Shown: one piece after another, positions 22,259 to 31,534 of the stretch
Layout: each line of letters starts with the position of its first letter
How positions within the stretch are numbered: the stretch's first letter is position 1
Source of the DNA: Acidimicrobiales bacterium
GTDB taxonomy: Bacteria; Actinomycetota; Acidimicrobiia; Acidimicrobiales; Iamiaceae
Length of the DNA stretch: 64,000 bases
Assembly: GCA_030448105.1 (NCBI GenBank)
Contig: JAUJNP010000001.1
Span: forward strand, 359,403-423,402
Direction of reading: 5' to 3'
The notes under the pieces: generated by a model
Seen by the model: the letters and a program-made list of their open reading frames with translations, nothing else
What the model was told of the DNA's origin: nothing
Databases searched by the model: none
Translations under genes and position numbers: made by a program

Positions 22259-23491
22259 CTACTCGATGCGCAGCCCTGAGATGGCCCGGGCGATGACGAG
22301 CTGCTGGATCTGCTCGGTGCCTTCGAAGATGTCGTAGATCTTGGCGTCGCGGTGGAAGCGCTCCACGGGGTACTCGCGCACGTAGCCGTAGCCGCCGAGG
22401 ATCTGGATGGCCCGCTCGGTGACCCACACCGCCACCCGGCCCGCCTTGAGCTTCGACATGGAGCCCTCGGCGTTGCGGTACTCGGCGTTGCGGGCCATCC
22501 ATGCCGCCCGCCACACCAGCAGCCGGGCGGCGTCGATCTCGGTGGCCATGTCGGCCAGGGTGAAGGCGATGGCCTGGTTCATGATGATGGGCTTGCCGAA
22601 CGCCTTGCGGTCCTGGGCGTACTGGAGGGCGTACTCGTAGGCGGCCCGGGCGATGCCGATGGCCTGGGCGCCCACCGCCGGGCGGGTGGCCTCGAAGGTG
22701 GACATGGCCGGCTGCTTGCCGCTGGTGGCGTGCTTCGGCTTGTTCATGGCCTCCCGCGCCTTGGCCAGCTTCTCGTCCAGCTTGTCCTTGCCGCCGAGGA
22801 GGCACGACCCGGGGACACGCACGTCGTCGAGCACCACCTCGGCGGTGTGGGAGGCCCGGATGCCGTGCTTCTTGTACTTCTGGCCCTGGGACAGCCCGGC
22901 CGTGCCCGGCGGCACGATGAAGCTGGCCTGGCCCCGGCCCTTCAGCTCGGGGTCCACGGCGGCGACCACCACGTGGACATCGGCGATGCCGCCGTTGGTG
23001 ATCCACGCCTTCGTGCCGTTGAGCACCCACTCGTCTTTGGCCTCGTCGTAGACGGCCCGGGTGCGCAGTGAGCTCACGTCGGAGCCGGCGTCGGGCTCGC
23101 TCACGCAGAAGGCGCCGAGGGCGATCTTGTCGGGTGTGCCGTAGCACTGCGGCACCCACTCCATCATCTGCTCCGGCGTGCCGTTGCCGGCGATGCCGGC
23201 GGCGGCCAGGCCCGAACCGAAGATGGCCAGGCCGATGCCGGCGTCACCCCAGAACAGCTCCTCGAGAGCGAGGGGCAGGGTGAGCCCGGAGGCGTCGCCC
23301 ATCATGGCGTTGGCCATGAAGTCGAAGCTGTAGAGCCCGATCTTGGCCGCCTCCTCGACGATGGGCCACGGGAACTCCTCGCGCTCGTCCCACTCCTCGG
23401 CGGCGGGGCGCACCACGTCCTCGGCGAAGTCGTGGACCCACTTCTGAATCTGCAGCTGGTCCTCGTTCAGGGCGAGGGAGAAGTCGCTCAT
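22259..23491 (-). CDS. Acyl-CoA dehydrogenase
   Basis: 410 residues beginning SDFSLALNEDQLQIQKWVHDFAEDVVRP. Family motifs: LGAFCVSEPDAGSDVSSLRTRA (FAD/substrate site), NGTKAWITNGGIADVHVV, AQDRKAFGKPIIMNQAIAF, and AIQILGGYGYVREYPVERFHRDAKIYDIFEGTEQIQ, which carries the catalytic-base region. It oxidises acyl-CoA to the trans-2-enoyl-CoA, passing electrons to ETF. The ATG start is favoured because the upstream extension in frame is not dehydrogenase-like and a perfect inverted repeat lies 20 bp upstream (23511-23526), suggesting control by a TetR/FadR-type repressor. Confidence 0.9.
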   Translation of the reverse strand: MSDFSLALNEDQLQIQKWVHDFAEDVVRPAAEEWDEREEFPWPIVEEAAKIGLYSFDFMANAMMGDASGLTLPLALEELFWGDAGIGLAIFGSGLAAAGIAGNGTPEQMMEWVPQCYGTPDKIALGAFCVSEPDAGSDVSSLRTRAVYDEAKDEWVLNGTKAWITNGGIADVHVVVAAVDPELKGRGQASFIVPPGTAGLSQGQKYKKHGIRASHTAEVVLDDVRVPGSCLLGGKDKLDEKLAKAREAMNKPKHATSGKQPAMSTFEATRPAVGAQAIGIARAAYEYALQYAQDRKAFGKPIIMNQAIAFTLADMATEIDAARLLVWRAAWMARNAEYRNAEGSMSKLKAGRVAVWVTERAIQILGGYGYVREYPVERFHRDAKIYDIFEGTEQIQQLVIARAISGLRIE

Positions 23492-23540: not shown

Positions 23541-24824
23541 TCATCCGCTCGGCTGCCAAGCGCGCCGGCCGGCACGGGCGGGAACGAGGACCAGGGCCAC
23601 CAGCACCAGCGCGCCGGCGGCCAGGTAGGGCGCGGGCACGCCGACGTGCTCGAAGAGCACGCCGGCCGCGGCCGGCCCCACCACCCTGGCCAGGCTCCCC
23701 GCCGACTGCTGGAACCCGAGCACCCGCCCCCGCTGCTCGGCCCGCACCCGGCCGGCCACCGCCGAGGACATGGTCGGCGTGACCAGCCCCTGGCCCACCA
23801 CGAGGAGCCCGAGGGCGGGGACCAGGGTGACCCAGCCGCCGTCGACGGCCAGGAGGACCAGACCAGCGCCGTTCGCAACCAGGCCTGCCCGCAACGTGCC
23901 CGCCTCGCCGAGGCGCTCGCTGACGGGGTGGACGAGCCCGACCTGCACGAGCACCAGGGCCAGGCCGATCCCCGTGAACACCGCGCCGGTCGAGCTGAGG
24001 CTGAGGCCGAGGCGGGCCTTCACCAGCAGGGCGAAGGTGCCCTCGAAGCCGCTGAAGGCCACCAGGGCGACGAAGGCCACCACCACCAGTCGCAGCACCG
24101 CGGGCGCCACCCCCGCCAGCCCCCCCGGGTGCAACCCCGGCTCCAGCCCGGCCGGCCCCACGTGCTCGGGCGCGGACCCTTCGGCCTCCGCCATGTCCGG
24201 TCCCCCAGCGGCCAACCTGGGGTGGGTCTCGGGGAGGCGGCGCACGGCCACGAGGGCGTTCACCCCGGCGATGGCGGCGGCCACGAAGAACGGGATGTGG
24301 GGCCCGCCCAGCGCGGTCAAGGTGGCGATGGCGGGTCCGAGCACGAAGCCGACCCCGAAGGCCGCGCCGAGCAGGCCGAACAGGCGGGGCCGCTCGGCCG
24401 CGGGAGCCACGTCGGCCACCGCCGCCTGCGCCACCGACACACTGGCCCCCGACGCCCCGTCGAGCACCCGCCCGAGCAGGAGCAGCCACACCGAGCCGGC
24501 CAGCCCGGTGACCACGCTGCCCACCGCCGTGCCGCAGAGCGAGACGATGAGGACCGGCTTGCGCCCGTAGCGGTCCGACAGCCGGCCCAGGATCGGGGCG
24601 CACACGAGCTGAGCCAGCGAGAAGCTGGCAACCACCAGACCGATGACCGAGGGGCTGATGTCGAGGTCCTCGGCGTAGCGGGGCAGGATCGGGAAAACGA
24701 TCCCGAAGCCGATCAGGTCCACCGCCACCGTCACCCAGATCGGCCCGAAGCCGGGAGGCAGGCGCCGAGGCCCACCGCCGGCACCTCGGCGCTGGCGCCC
24801 TGCTGACCGGCCCACGACGGCCAA
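23541..24824 (-). CDS. MFS transporter, TetA/DHA1-like exporter
   Basis: 427 residues with about 12 hydrophobic segments. The first helices contain DLIGFGIVFPILPRYAEDL and the cytoplasmic loop GRLSDRYGRKPVLIVSL, the MFS motif A (GxLaDrxGrkxxl). LGAAFGVGFVLGPAIAT is motif C, typical of drug/H+ antiporters of the DHA1 group. A long central loop (PETHPRLAAGG ... EPGLHPGG) joins the two six-helix halves. The N-terminal 25 residues are basic and may be over-extended; a start a little downstream is possible. Substrate unknown. Confidence 0.85.
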   Translation of the reverse strand: MAVVGRSAGRQRRGAGGGPRRLPPGFGPIWVTVAVDLIGFGIVFPILPRYAEDLDISPSVIGLVVASFSLAQLVCAPILGRLSDRYGRKPVLIVSLCGTAVGSVVTGLAGSVWLLLLGRVLDGASGASVSVAQAAVADVAPAAERPRLFGLLGAAFGVGFVLGPAIATLTALGGPHIPFFVAAAIAGVNALVAVRRLPETHPRLAAGGPDMAEAEGSAPEHVGPAGLEPGLHPGGLAGVAPAVLRLVVVAFVALVAFSGFEGTFALLVKARLGLSLSSTGAVFTGIGLALVLVQVGLVHPVSERLGEAGTLRAGLVANGAGLVLLAVDGGWVTLVPALGLLVVGQGLVTPTMSSAVAGRVRAEQRGRVLGFQQSAGSLARVVGPAAAGVLFEHVGVPAPYLAAGALVLVALVLVPARAGRRAWQPSG

Positions 24825-25030
24825 GGGTCCGCCCGCCCGGCTCCCCCAGTCAAATCCCGCGCCGCGGGGGCGGCTCTCCCCTCTGCGGGCTGCTCGCCTG
24901 GCGACTCCGCCGCGGGCGTGCGCCGGTAGGATGCTGGATCACGCTGCGGGGCGCAGGGGATGCGCCGGGTGGGCACGACCTATAGCCGTAGGGCCAGTCG
25001 GGCAGCGGGCTCAGTCGTTGGGAGGGTGGC

Positions 25031-26416
25031 ATGGGGCGCACCGAGGAACACGCAGGGCTGCTCGGCCAGCTCACCGACGCCCATGTCGTGGATCGTGCCC
25101 GCTGTGGCGACCGGGTGGCCCTCGCCGAGGTCGCCCGCCGGCACGTGCCGGCCGCGTGGCGCCTGGCCGTCCTCAGCAGCGGCTCCCTCACCGCCGCTTC
25201 GCAGGTCGTGGGCCGGGCGCTCACCATGGCCCTCGCCACCGTGGGCGGCGGCGCCTGGGGGGTCGACGACCCGTTCCGGCCGTGGCTGCTCCGCGCCGTC
25301 CGGGACCTGGCCACCGACGCCCGCGTGGGCGACGCCGACGACCTCACCGAGCTCGCCACCCAGGTGGCCGGCGACACCTTCCCCGCGCCGGTCGCCCTGG
25401 CCTTCGCCGAACTGCCCGAGGCCCAGCGCACCGCCCTGTGGGCCAGTGCCGTCGAAGGGCTGTCGCCCGCCGAGGTCGCCACCGTGCTCGACCTCGATCC
25501 CGACGACGGCCCGTCGGCGGTGGCCGCGGCCGAAGCCGCCTTCGCCGGCCGGGCCCGGCGGGCGGGCGGGGAGCCCGTGCTGTACGACGCCCTCGTGGCC
25601 TTCGCCCTCCCGGTGCCGGCCGACGTCGTGTCGTCGGCCACCACCACGTGGCGCACCTGGCAGGCCGCCGGCGACCGCCCGGCGGGGACGGCAGCGACCG
25701 GACGGATCACCGGGCTCCGCCCGCGCCTGGTGGCCACCGCCGCCGTCGTGGTCCTCGCCGTCGGCGCCTTCGCCTCCGTGGTCACCGAGGGCGGTGCCAC
25801 CGGCCCGGTGCGCCCCCGCTCGGCCAGCCAGCAGGTCGCGGCACCGGCGTTGCAGAAGCCGGCTGCCCGAGGCGCCGACGCCCGTGCCACCGGCCGCACT
25901 CGGAGCGCCCCCGGCCGCCCCCGTTCCCGCTCCGCCACCTCAGCTCCCCGCACCCCCAAACCGGCCCCGCCCCCCTCGATCGTCGGCCTGACCCCGGGCG
26001 GGGCCGACGGCAGCCCCGTCACCGGCGACCAGGCGGGTCCGTCCACCGGTTCGGGCGCGGGCACGGGCACCGGCACGGGGTCCGGTTCGGGCACCTCGCA
26101 GGCGCCGCCGGCCACCCCCGCGCCCGCCGGTGCGGACCGCGGCACCGGCTCGTCGGCGGCCCCGCCGACACCGGCCCCCGCTCCGGCTCCCGCCCCCGCG
26201 CCGGCTCCCGCCCCCGCCCCCGCGCCGGCTCCCGCCCCCGCTCCGGCCCCGGCCCCGGCCCCCGCCGCGCCGCCCCCCACCACCTCGTCGCCGACCACCC
26301 GGCCGGCGCCCACCACCACCGCGCCGCCAGCGCCGCCCACCACCCTGGTGACCGCCCCCGGCCCTGGGAGCGGTGTCGGCGGGGTCATCTGCGGCGCGCT
26401 GCCGGTCTGCCCCTGA
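25031..26416 (+). CDS. Sigma-70-like protein fused to a transmembrane segment and Pro-Ala-rich exported tail
   Basis: 461 residues; GGAGG lies 5 nt before the ATG. Residues 15-100 (VVDRARCGDRVALAEVARRHVPAAWRLAVL ... PWLLRAVRDLATD) resemble region 2 of an ECF sigma factor, and 120-175 (FAELPEAQRTALWASAVEGLSPAEVATVLDLD) region 4, but both are degenerate. A hydrophobic helix follows near 230-252 (RLVATAAVVVLAVGAFASVV), then a long Gly/Ser/Thr/Pro stretch, an uninterrupted Pro-Ala repeat (about 378-414), a Thr/Pro stretch and a C-terminal CGALPVC. ECF families with C-terminal membrane and extracellular extensions are known; whether this one binds RNA polymerase is unclear. The 206-bp gap to the divergent MFS gene shows no gene. 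Confidence 0.65.
   Translation: MGRTEEHAGLLGQLTDAHVVDRARCGDRVALAEVARRHVPAAWRLAVLSSGSLTAASQVVGRALTMALATVGGGAWGVDDPFRPWLLRAVRDLATDARVGDADDLTELATQVAGDTFPAPVALAFAELPEAQRTALWASAVEGLSPAEVATVLDLDPDDGPSAVAAAEAAFAGRARRAGGEPVLYDALVAFALPVPADVVSSATTTWRTWQAAGDRPAGTAATGRITGLRPRLVATAAVVVLAVGAFASVVTEGGATGPVRPRSASQQVAAPALQKPAARGADARATGRTRSAPGRPRSRSATSAPRTPKPAPPPSIVGLTPGGADGSPVTGDQAGPSTGSGAGTGTGTGSGSGTSQAPPATPAPAGADRGTGSSAAPPTPAPAPAPAPAPAPAPAPAPAPAPAPAPAPAPAAPPPTTSSPTTRPAPTTTAPPAPPTTLVTAPGPGSGVGGVICGALPVCP
26164..26272 (+). repeat. Pro-Ala-coding low-complexity repeat
   Basis: Irregular repeats of CCGGCTCCCGCC/CCCGCGCCGGCT encode a (Pro-Ala) run in the membrane-anchored sigma-like protein. Such tails usually act as stiff spacers through the cell wall. 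The region is nearly free of A and T and prone to length change and assembly errors. Confidence 0.8.
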
Positions 26417-26440: not shown

Positions 26441-27793
26441 TCAGCGGCGACGCACAGTCGTGCCCGCGGGGGTGTCCTCCACCGTCCAGCCCTCGGCCTC
26501 GAGCTGATCCCGGAGGGCGTCGGCCGCCGCCCAGTGGCGCGCCGCCCGCGCGTCGTCGCGCCGGCGGGCCAGCGCGGCGACGGCCTCGGGAACCTCCTCG
26601 GTGCCCGAGCGCAGCTCGATCCCCACCGCGCCACAGATCTCATGGACGGCCGCCGCCAGCGCCGCCGCCGGCCCTTCCCGGCCCTCGTCGAGCAGCGCGT
26701 TGCCCCTGCGCACCAGCTCGAACAGGAGGGCCACGGCGGCCGAGGTGTCGAGGTCGTCGTCCATGGCGGCGCGGAAGCGGGCCACGGCGTCTGGCTCGGG
26801 GGCGACCGGGGCCAGTCCCGCAGCACGGCGGGCGAAGGCGTCGAGGCGCTCCAGGGCGGCGGCGGCGTCGGCGGTGGCCGCCCGGGTCACGTCGATGGGC
26901 GAGCGGTAGTGGGCCCGGAGCACGAGCAGCCGGTAGGCGCGGGGATCCACCGACTCGATCAGCTCGGCCAGGGTGGTGAAGTTGCCGAGCGACTTCGACA
27001 TCTTCTCCCCGCCCACCTCCACGAAGCCGTTGTGGGCCCAGTGGCGGGCGTAGCGCCGTCCGGTGGCCACGGCCTGGACCCGCTCGTTCTCGTGGTGGGG
27101 GAAGGCCAGGTCCTGGCCGCCGCCGTGCAGGTCGAAGCCCTCGCCGAGGAGGTCGAGGGCCATCACCACACACTCGGTGTGCCAGCCGGGCCGGCCCGGC
27201 CCCCACGGTGACGGCCACGAGGGCTCACCCGGCTTGGCCTTCTTCCACAGGGCGAAGTCCACCGGCGAACGCTTCTCCTCGAGCGCCTCCACCCGGGCCC
27301 CCGCCCGCAGGCTGTCGATCGACTGGCGGGCGAGGAGCCCGTAACCCTGCAGCTGCTCGGCCGAGAAGTACACGCCGTCGCCCGTCTCGTAGGCGGCGCC
27401 CCCCTCGACCAGGCCCGCGATCAACGCCACCATGGCCTCCACGTAGGCGGTGGCGTGGGGGTCCACGGTGGGCCGCCTCACGCCGATGGCGTCCATGGCC
27501 TCGTACCACTGCGCCTCGTAGGTGGCCGCCACCTCGGCCTCGGGGCGGCCCTCGGCCGCCGCCCGGGCGATGATCTTGTCGTCGATGTCGGTGATGTTCG
27601 ACACGTAGCGGACCTCGTCGCCGCCCCACTCGAGGTAGCGGCGCAACACGTCGAACACGAGCGTGAACCGGCCGTGGCCGAGGTGGGCCGGGCCCGACAC
27701 GGTGGGCCCGCAGACGTACATCGACACCTTGCCCGGCTCCCGCCGCTCGAAGGGCACGACTCTGCCCTGGGCGGTGTCGAAGAGCCGCAGCAC
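26441..27793 (-). CDS. cysS: Cysteine--tRNA ligase
   Basis: 450 residues, usual for bacterial CysRS. Zinc/cysteine-binding Cys28 in MYVCGPTV, the HIGH-type motif HLGH at 37-40, the second zinc region GWHTECVVMALDLLGEGFDLHGGGQDLAFPHHENE, and KMSKS in GGEKMSKSLGNF. It charges tRNA-Cys in the cytoplasm. The related mycothiol ligase MshC was considered because this is an actinobacterium, but the length, the GPTV sequence after Cys28 and the C-terminal anticodon-binding tail fit CysRS. It is divergent from the xylanase gene at 27853. Confidence 0.88.
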   Translation of the reverse strand: MLRLFDTAQGRVVPFERREPGKVSMYVCGPTVSGPAHLGHGRFTLVFDVLRRYLEWGGDEVRYVSNITDIDDKIIARAAAEGRPEAEVAATYEAQWYEAMDAIGVRRPTVDPHATAYVEAMVALIAGLVEGGAAYETGDGVYFSAEQLQGYGLLARQSIDSLRAGARVEALEEKRSPVDFALWKKAKPGEPSWPSPWGPGRPGWHTECVVMALDLLGEGFDLHGGGQDLAFPHHENERVQAVATGRRYARHWAHNGFVEVGGEKMSKSLGNFTTLAELIESVDPRAYRLLVLRAHYRSPIDVTRAATADAAAALERLDAFARRAAGLAPVAPEPDAVARFRAAMDDDLDTSAAVALLFELVRRGNALLDEGREGPAAALAAAVHEICGAVGIELRSGTEEVPEAVAALARRRDDARAARHWAAADALRDQLEAEGWTVEDTPAGTTVRRR

Positions 27794-27852
27794 GGGCCGG
27801 ACGGTAGCCCCCGGTGCCCGGGACGCCGGCGGGATTGTGGTCCACTGGCGCG

Positions 27853-28932
27853 GTGCGAAGCCCCGCCGTCGCCGTGCTCGTGGCGGCCGGCCTGGTCGCG
27901 GCGATGGCGACGGTGGGGTGTGGCGACGACACGGCCGCGCGGACAGCCCCCTCCACGCCGGCGGCCACCGAGGCTCCGGGGCTCCAGGCCCTCGCCGCTC
28001 CCCATGGCGTGCGCATGGGGACAGCGGTGCGGGCCAACGTGCTGGCCGCCGATCCAGGGTACGGGCGCACCATCGCCGCGCAGTACGGCATCGTCACCCC
28101 CGAGAACGACCTCAAGTTCGCCCCCACCGAGCCGCAGCGCGGCCGGTTCGACTTCGCCGCCGCCGACGCGGTGGTGGCCTTCGCCGAGCGCCATGGCCTG
28201 GCCGTCCGGGGCCACACCCTCGTCTGGCACCGCCAGCTCCCGGCCTGGCTGACCGAGGGGCGCTTCGACGCCAGGGAGACGAGAGCCGTGCTCCGGGCCC
28301 ACATCGCCGCCGTGGTCGGCCGCTACCGCGGCCGCATCGCCCAGTGGGACGTGGTGAACGAGGCGGTCGACGAAGACGGCCGCCTGCGCGACAACCTCTG
28401 GCTCCGGGTGCTCGGGCCCGGCTACATCGGCGACGCCTTCCAGGCGGCCCGTGCCGCCGATCCCGAGGCGCGCCTCTTCCTCAACGAGTTCGCCATCGAA
28501 GCCCCCGGGCCCAAGGCCGACGCCACCGTCGCGCTGGTTGCGCGGCTGCGGGCCGAGGGTGTGCCCATCGACGGCGTCGGCTTCCAGGCCCACGCCACCC
28601 CCGGCGCCCCTTCCGGCGAGGCGCTGGCGGGCCAGCTCCGGCGGGTGGGCCGGCTCGGCCTGGAGACGGCGGTGACCGAGGCCGACGTGCGCCTGGACGT
28701 CCCGGCCACGCCCGCTGCCCTCGCCCGCCAGGCCAACACCTACCGCCAGCTCCTGGAGGCGTGCCTGCGCGAGCCGTCGTGCCACACCTTCGCCACCTGG
28801 GGGTTCACCGACGCCTGGTCGTGGATCGCCAAGACGTTCCCCGGTCAGGGAGCGGCCCTGCCCTTCGACGAGCGCTACCGGCCCAAGCCCGCCCAGCGGG
28901 CCATGGCCGCCGCCCTGCGGGCCCGCCGCTGA
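27853..28932 (+). CDS. GH10 endo-1,4-beta-xylanase, lipoprotein
   Basis: 359 residues from GTG 27853, chosen because it places a lipoprotein signal ([21 protein letters not shown]) at the N terminus. The GH10 barrel follows: [36 protein letters not shown], the acid/base Glu170 in [31 protein letters not shown], the nucleophile Glu276 in [11 protein letters not shown], and the terminal [13 protein letters not shown]. It should cleave xylan outside the cell while attached to the membrane. An ATG-less longer start at 27814 (GTG) is less likely. Xylose genes (xylA, xylB, GH3) are 22 kb further on. Confidence 0.88.
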
Positions 28933-28984: not shown

Positions 28985-31534
28985 ATGGCCGCCGAGCGCA
29001 CCGTCCCCTCCAAGCCCGCCCTGGAGGGCCTCGAGGAGAAGTGGGACGCCCGCTGGGAGGCCGAGGGCACCTACCGCTTCGACCGCGGCAAGGAGCGAGC
29101 CGAGGTCTTCGCCATCGACACGCCGCCGCCCACCGCGTCGGGCACCCTGCACATCGGCCACGTGTTCAGCTACACCCACACCGACTGCATCGCCCGCTAC
29201 CAGCGCATGCGGGGCCGGGAGGTCTTCTACCCCATGGGGTGGGACGACAACGGCGTGCCCACCGAGCGCCGGGTGGAGAACTACTACGGCGTCCGCTGCG
29301 ACCCCAGCCTCCCCTACGACCCGGGCTTCGCCCCGCCGGCGTCGCCCGGCAAGGAGTTCGTCAGCACCTCGCGGCGCAACTTCGTCGAGCTGTGCCTCGC
29401 CCTCACCACCGAGGACGAGAAGGCCTTCGAGGCCACCTGGCGACGCCTCGGCCTCTCGGTCGACTGGTCGCTCCTGTACCAGACCATCAGCGCCGACTCC
29501 CGGGCCACCGCGCAACGGGCCTTCCTGCGCAACCTGGCCCGGGGCGAGGCCTACCTGGCCGAGGCGCCCACCATGTGGGACGTCACCTTCGGGATGGCCG
29601 TCTCCCAGGCCGAGCTGGAGGACCGCGAGACCGCGGGCGCCTACCACCGCATCTCGTTCCACGGACCCGACGACGAGCCGGTGCTCATCGAGACCACCCG
29701 GCCCGAGCTGCTGGCGGCGTGTGTGGCGCTGGTGGCCCACCCCGACGACGAGCGCTACCAGCCGCTGTTCGATCGCACCGTCACCACCCCGGTCTTCGGC
29801 GTGGAGGTGCCGGTGAAGGCCCACCCGTTGGCCGAGCCCGACAAGGGCTCCGGCATCGCCATGGTGTGCACCTTTGGCGACGTCACCGACGTCACCTGGT
29901 GGCGCGAGCTGCAGCTCGACACGCGCGCCATCGTCGGGCGCGACGGGCGCATCGCCGCCGAGCCACCCGCCGCCCTGGTCGGCCAAGGCGCCCGGGCGGC
30001 CTACGCCCGCCTGGCCGGCGCCACCGTCCACACCGCCCGGGAGCGCATGCTCGAGCTGCTGGCCGAGGCGGGCGACCTGCACGGCGAACCCCGCCCCGTC
30101 ACCCACGCCGTGAAGTTCTACGAGCGGGGCACCAAGCCGCTCGAGATCGTCGCCTCCCGCCAGTGGTACATCCGCAACGGTGGTCGCGATCCCGAGCTGC
30201 GGGAGCGCCTCCTGCGCCGGGGTGACGAGCTCGCCTGGTGGCCGGCGTTCATGCAGGCCCGCTACGAGAACTGGGTCAGCGGCCTCAACGGCGACTGGCT
30301 CATCAGCCGCCAGCGCTACTTCGGGGTGCCGTTCCCCGTCTGGTACCGCCTCGATGCCGATGGCGAGGCGGACCACGACGACCCGATCGTGGCCGAGGAG
30401 GCTGCCCTCCCGGTCGACCCCAGCTCCGACCCGCCCCCGGGCTTCACCGAGGACCAGCGTGGCCGGCCCGGCGGGTTCGTCGGCGACCCCGACGTGATGG
30501 ACACCTGGGCCACGTCCTCGCTCACCCCCCAACTGGCCACCGGTTGGGAGCGCGACCCGGACCTGTTCGCCCGCACCTTCCCCAGCGACCTGCGCCCCCA
30601 GGCCCACGAGATCATCCGCACGTGGCTGTTCTCCACCCTGGTGCGCAGCCACTTCGAGCACGACACCGTCCCGTGGCGCAACGCCGCCATATCCGGCTGG
30701 GTCCTCGACCCCGATCGCAAGAAGATGTCGAAGTCGAAGGGGAACGTGGTCACGCCGATCCCCCTGCTGGAGGAGTACGGCACCGACGGCGTGCGCTACT
30801 GGGCCGCCAGCGGCGCGCCGGGCACCGACACCGCCACCGACTTCGGCCAGATGAAGGTGGGTCGCCGGCTGGCCATCAAGCTGCTCAACGCCAGCCGCTT
30901 CGCCCTCGGCCTGGGCCGAGCCGAGGACCCCACGCTGGTCACCGACCCCGTCGACCGCGCCATGTTGGCCCGCCTGGCCGGCGTGGTCGACGCCGCCACC
31001 GGAGCCTTCGACGCCTACCACTACGCTCGCGCCCTCGAACGCACCGAGACGTTCTTCTGGTCGTTCTGCGACGACTACCTCGAGCTGGTGAAGGCGCGGG
31101 CCTACGGCAGCCGGGGCGATGGCCCGGCGGAGTCCGCCCAGGCGGCCCTGGCCGTGGCCCTCTCCACCCTCCTGCGGCTCTTCGCACCGTTCACGCCCTT
31201 CGTCACCGAGGAGGTGTGGTCGTGGTGGCAGGAAGGGTCGGTGCACCGGGCGCCCTGGCCCGACGCCGCCGCGCTGCGGGCGGTGGCCGGCGACGGCGAT
31301 CCCGCCGTCCTGGTGGCAGCGGCCGACGCCCTGCGAGAGGTGCGCAAGGCCAAGTCCGACGCCAAGCGGTCGATGCGGGCCGACGTGGCCCGGGTGGAGG
31401 TGCGCGACACCGCCGACCGACTGGCCGCCCTCGCCGCCGCCACCGACGACGTGATGGAGGCGGGCCGGGTGGCCGAGCTGGCCCGCACCGAGGGCGAGCG
31501 GTTCGCGGTGGCCGTCACCCTGGCCGATGGCTGA
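28985..31534 (+). CDS. valS: Valine--tRNA ligase
   Basis: 849 residues. Class Ia features: [13 protein letters not shown] with HIGH at 56-59, [23 protein letters not shown], the editing (CP1) domain region [36 protein letters not shown], and KMSKS at 580-584 in [12 protein letters not shown]. The C-terminal anticodon domain contains [17 protein letters not shown]. The early WDDNG motif and the shorter C terminus, without the long coiled arm of E. coli ValRS, match the variant seen in alphaproteobacteria and many actinobacteria. It charges and proofreads tRNA-Val. Confidence 0.9.

Follow-up and report, generated by a model that had tools for sequence, protein, structure and literature searches.

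Does a sigma-like protein that is anchored in the membrane still act as a sigma factor, or has it become something else? The question is raised by a 461-residue protein encoded in a 64,000-nucleotide stretch of an Acidimicrobiales bacterium genome (hereafter the window; features in Table 1). The preliminary description of this protein had reported that a degenerate pair of sigma regions 2 and 4 precedes a single membrane helix, with a tail of about 200 residues that ends in CxxxxxC, and Pfam, hydropathy and composition analyses bear out these features. Taken together, the results suggest a sigma factor turned into something else, because its sigma fold, membrane anchor and cysteine-tipped tail stay while the zinc finger of its relatives and most of the contacts are lost.

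The reading frame opens with an ATG (read from the sequence), and its codon-position GC over the first 200 codons (0.845/0.56/0.94) is of the coding type. A chance reading frame was considered and rejected on account of protein-level relatives in other genomes, the count in Table 1 including the window's own genome. A Pfam search of the 461-residue protein, with matches reported at E<=10, yielded Sigma70_r4_2 (PF08281) as the only family over its cut-off (E 7e-6, 26.0 versus 25.7 bits, residues 123-156). The second match, PhyR_sigma-like, lay below its cut-off (18.1 versus 27 bits). At the same threshold the protein gave no match to the region-2 profile (PF04542), to zf-HC2 or to the response-regulator receiver domain, and its tail contained no Pfam domain and so no terminal carbohydrate-binding module. 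The NCBIfam SigM model matched residues 11-156 with an E of 8e-7, far below its cut-off.

Table 1 Features of the protein and of its locus in the window
Feature	Position	Strand	Basis or remark
Open reading frame, 461 aa: pseudo-sigma, membrane helix, low-complexity tail	25031..26416	+	Protein-level relatives in 23/41 genomes
Putative ribosome-binding site GGGAGGG	25020..25026	+	Read directly
Degenerate sigma region 2, aa 16-97	25076..25321	+	Modelled helices 16-97 like ECF sigmas; no Pfam region-2 match
Degenerate sigma region 4, aa 114-179	25370..25567	+	Pfam Sigma70_r4_2, 26.0 bits
Site of the missing H-x3-C-x2-C zinc-finger (anti-sigma) segment of orthologues	25565..25588	+	Linker alignment
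Conserved helix past the zinc-finger site, aa 199-212, W-R-x-W	25625..25666	+	Alignment and modelled helix 199-212
Single membrane helix, about aa 233-251	25727..25783	+	Hydropathy 2.56
Arg-rich, then Gly/Ser/Thr/Pro-Ala low-complexity tail, predicted outside	25784..26389	+	Composition
C-terminal two-cysteine tip CGALPVCP	26390..26413	+	Cys pair in 16/20 complete locus orthologues
Locus anchor: acyl-CoA dehydrogenase	22259..23491	-	79-88% identical, beside the gene in 8/8 other family loci
Locus anchor: MFS transporter, divergent	23541..24824	-	True start probably lower than 24824
Locus anchor: cysteinyl-tRNA synthetase (cysS), convergent	26441..27793	-	
Locus anchor: valyl-tRNA synthetase (valS)	28985..31534	+	

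The fold of the protein was predicted with AlphaFold. A model based on 31 aligned sequences reached a mean pLDDT of 88.6 and a pTM of 0.85, and a second model, based on eight sequences (the window protein and seven decayed relatives), reached 77.0 and 0.71; even in this model, built from decayed relatives only, most of the sigma part exceeded a pLDDT of 85. ECF sigma factors were the best structural matches of both models, led by SigW bound to RsiW. A second aligner, applied to the first model, returned CnrH with CnrY (Z 14.6, 2.7 A, 153 residues), SigW (Z 14.5, 3.0 A, 152 residues) and PhyR (Z 10.1). The predicted fold is that of a two-domain sigma factor in the compact form seen when it is held by an anti-sigma, a match of fold that does not equal a match of function. 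With region 4 just over the Pfam cut-off, region 2 unmatched and both models resembling ECF sigma factors, the sigma-like identity proposed in the preliminary description came through the profile and structure checks suggested with it.

Insertion of the 461-residue protein into the membrane and its topology are predictions from sequence. The 25 residues preceding the membrane helix contain five Lys or Arg and the following 25 contain three; direct reading shows that the tail is also Arg-rich further past the helix, and the topology call is weaker for this protein alone. The tail comprises 210 residues, with P, A, S, T and G accounting for 81% of its whole length. Its only cysteines, Cys 454 and Cys 460, form the ending C-x5-C-P-COOH and are probably joined as a disulfide.

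The window protein shares the plan of a sigma domain, a membrane helix and a Pro-rich outer stretch with ECF52 (SCO4117 of Streptomyces coelicolor), for which this plan has already been published, and with ECF48 and ECF53, for which membrane-fused extensions are expected (PMC5826349; PMC8999054). This architecture is therefore not unusual, and low-complexity Pro-Ala, the make-up of the spacer singled out in the preliminary description, is by itself ordinary in such a GC-rich genome. The unusual feature, which could not be seen from the sequence alone, is a family-wide loss of sigma motifs and zinc finger at one conserved locus where the anchor and mostly the tip are retained. Intact orthologues at the locus resemble ECF52, ECF48 and ECF53 in having the zinc finger as well (PMC5826349; PMC8999054). 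Unlike ECF52, the window protein has no zinc finger, its sigma motifs are eroded, and it carries a two-cysteine tip instead of a carbohydrate-binding module. In IutY of Pseudomonas putida (ECF243), too, a single membrane protein carries both sigma and anti-sigma, as in the fusions at this locus, but IutY is described as an active sigma freed by proteolysis (PMC8999054), whereas the window protein has lost its sigma motifs. The proposed genome-wide survey for the same architecture did find company: two more sigma-domain proteins (L210 and L211), among 24 region-2 matches of the genome at E<=0.01 that do not include the window protein, carry a strong hydrophobic helix downstream of their sigma domain. 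In L211 this is joined by an H-x3-C-x2-C motif, with no match to the zf-HC2 profile, and by a Pro-rich stretch. Other fused sigma proteins therefore exist in the same genome.

Comparison across genomes ties the ancestry of the protein to a conserved locus, as the gene order acyl-CoA dehydrogenase, MFS transporter, fused sigma gene, cysS and valS recurs across Acidimicrobiales. A scan of genome contigs with the window protein itself found no relative, and a second scan with intact orthologues as queries returned 80 loci. Among 54 MFS-anchored loci that were fetched, 10 had the gene; the remainder were weaker MFS homologues, cut contigs or loci with the gene absent. Within the window's family, nine of the 24 genomes examined have the fused sigma gene at this locus.

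In other families the gene at the locus usually codes for an intact ECF sigma, to which a zf-HC2 zinc finger, a membrane helix and a tail are joined in this order. Fifteen locus proteins from outside the family were found and 11 were scanned with Pfam; region 2 exceeded its cut-off in 8/11 and zf-HC2 likewise in 8/11. All nine members in the window's family have the hydrophobic helix and the low-complexity tail. The zinc-finger motif is left in one of their nine loci (L100) and has been excised in the other eight, the linker alignment showing the segment cleanly missing and the flanking ALPxP...WRxW segment retained. Zinc-finger loss and sigma loss are separable, because L060, of another family, has no zinc finger and a sigma domain still over the Pfam cut-off, while L100 shows the reverse, a zinc finger and no sigma profile over the cut-off. 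L062 and L094, each from a further family, have likewise lost region 2. The L100 protein (L100:7670-9511) contains a long acidic insertion of roughly 75 residues or more that breaks region 2.

Residues at expected contact sites have changed as well. Positions 55, 58 and 62 of region 2.2, conserved as acidic residues, presumably meet the beta' clamp of RNA polymerase; the alignment shows A, Q and R there in the window protein. Position 62 is E or D in all 11 intact orthologues and R in the window protein and in six of the seven decayed relatives aligned. Among the 24 region-2 proteins that the window's genome encodes, 23 have D or E at position 58 and 18 have E at position 62; this comparison was confined to positions 58, 62 and 85, as the alignment of these sigmas, which mixes sigma groups, is poor in region 4. 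The preliminary description had proposed that the protein titrates RNA polymerase, and the loss of these acidic positions (58 D to Q, 62 E to R) makes titration not the likeliest role. Arg 166, 168 and 172 of the intact orthologues, which we take to lie in the region-4 recognition helix, are A, E and A in the window protein. The protein retains L128-P-E, R133, R83, W85, R91 and D96, and because of these residues and of its region-4 match it is the least decayed member of its family. A tally of all conserved polar positions was dropped as proof of sigma loss, as ordinary ECF sigmas of similar divergence vary as much: of 18 such positions the window protein retains 8 and four held-out ordinary ECFs retain 5, 9, 12 and 12, giving no separation. 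The case for sigma loss is built instead on particular acidic and Arg positions, on orthologues that no longer match the profiles and on evolutionary rates.

The sigma part evolves faster in the window's family than in the intact orthologues or in the neighbouring MFS gene. Median pN/pS was 1.0 for 28 decayed pairs, 0.64 for 45 intact pairs and 0.41 for 15 MFS pairs, values that are near saturation, GC-biased and to be read relative to one another only; median pS was similar in the three sets (0.46, 0.455 and 0.478, respectively).

These observations bear on whether the protein is a still-working fused ECF sigma of divergent sequence, freed by proteolysis as proposed for ECF52. Its region 4 passes Pfam, its modelled fold is intact, several residues of regions 2.3 and 2.4 are retained, and fast evolution could be divergence. 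We nevertheless regard a working sigma factor as quite improbable: the acidic 2.2 positions and three Arg of the recognition helix have disappeared, no zinc finger is left to hold the sigma, and the window protein alone among the nine family loci has a sigma profile over the cut-off, which the eight relatives at the same locus fail to reach. With its zinc finger removed and its contacts to RNA polymerase and promoter eroded, the protein has most likely ceased to act as a sigma factor, as judged from its sequence.

A degenerate sigma domain has a precedent in PhyR, an anti-anti-sigma of Alphaproteobacteria whose sigma-like domain has the correct ECF structure but is degenerate in its promoter- and core-RNA-polymerase-binding regions (PMC8103513). 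The window protein shows the same pattern of an ECF fold with degenerate binding regions, and might be a membrane-anchored sigma mimic of this kind that titrates separate zinc-finger anti-sigmas under control of the tail. The leading structural matches are sigmas solved with anti-sigmas, PhyR itself scoring lower (Z 10.1), PhyR_sigma-like is the second Pfam match, below its cut-off, and five zf-HC2 matches in the same genome are possible partners. We hold such mimicry to be unlikely, as an anti-sigma partner is absent from the locus, the retained anti-sigma-binding surface that it calls for is putative, and the sequence changes fast, unlike that of a strict mimic. The window protein further differs from PhyR in having no receiver domain, in its membrane anchor and outer tail, and in that no NepR-like partner was identified. 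The listings and abstracts searched contained no membrane-anchored pseudo-sigma, and such an anchored form is without precedent within that literature. If the mimic were real, PhyR-like sigma mimicry would have arisen a second time and independently, from an actinobacterial fused ECF receptor that lost its inhibitor and its transcription activity and became a sigma-shaped decoy on the inner face of the membrane.

The tip of the tail tells of retention. A close Cys pair occurs near the tail end in the majority of the 20 complete locus proteins counted (Table 1), and random placement of equal cysteine numbers gave a mean of 3.2 and a maximum of 11 in 20,000 trials versus the observed 16. The tip is thus retained more often than chance allows. 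It is present in six of the eight complete proteins of the window's family; the tails of L031 and L033 end without a Cys pair and L032 is cut by a contig end. In several intact orthologues the tip resembles C-T-G-x-x-V-G-x-x-x-V-G-C-x-P, compared with CGALPVCP in the window protein. Among further loci, counted within Acidimicrobiales only, the pair is present in L110 and L119, and a close tail pair is missing from L114, L117, L118 and L120-L123, of which L117, L118 and L121-L123 have two Cys about 100 residues apart; the three Cys of L124 may belong to a shifted frame. The tip is therefore not found throughout Acidimicrobiales, and it is a candidate sensing element for many fused ECF receptors at this locus. 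In L035:8328-9938 the two-Cys tip is duplicated in tandem (CTGLLLGGTVVGCEVQAP twice).

Non-random retention of the tip also speaks against a decaying gene without present function, which we consider very doubtful. A pN/pS near 1 and sigma decay in other families (L062 and L094) would fit simple decay, but the reading frames are open in all nine family loci (L032 up to the contig end), the codon GC of the window's gene is of the coding type, and the fold is recoverable from the decayed rows alone. One open frame alone proves little, because stops are rare at 81% GC (a mean of 3.25 per shuffle, with none in 3.6% of 2000 shuffles).

We judge it reasonably probable that the window protein is a membrane-anchored pseudo-sigma derived from an ECF52-kind fusion, serving as a protein-docking module or as a cytoplasmic plug for the tail. 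The ancestor was a fusion of ECF sigma, zinc-finger (ZAS-type) anti-sigma, membrane helix and outer tail at one Acidimicrobiales locus. The lineage of the window then lost the zinc finger, and residues for contact with RNA polymerase and promoter eroded. What is left would be a closed sigma2-sigma4 fold on the cytoplasmic side, a single helix and, at the surface, a flexible tail whose two-Cys tip is probably disulfide-bonded. On a conservative view, selection would act on the anchor and tail. The computations establish the ancestry, the synteny, the missing zinc finger, the changed key residues, the predicted fold and the conservation of the tip; from them we infer membrane insertion and topology, the disulfide, the end of transcription activity and the docking or plug role of today. 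One fixed locus thus spans the range between intact fusions of sigma, anti-sigma and receptor and proteins that match no sigma profile, while the anchor and mostly the tip persist, and it provides a testable case of a transcription factor becoming a non-transcriptional membrane protein or decoy. It also serves as a warning that annotation from a single marginal sigma match may hide pseudo-sigmas.

Further observations concern the neighbourhood of the gene. The cysS copy is 37-40% identical to that of the window in five of the eight other family loci (L031, L033, L046, L099 and L101), whereas the L100 copy reaches about 70% and the copies of other families reach 60-70%; in the five loci it looks as if it had been replaced in place. 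Between cysS and valS the window contains a glycosyl hydrolase family 10 (xylanase-type) gene at 27814-28932 (Pfam E 4e-97) with a lipoprotein-like start. In L042:7511-10962 the fused sigma receptor is present as a tandem duplicate at the same locus, and the tails of the two copies differ.
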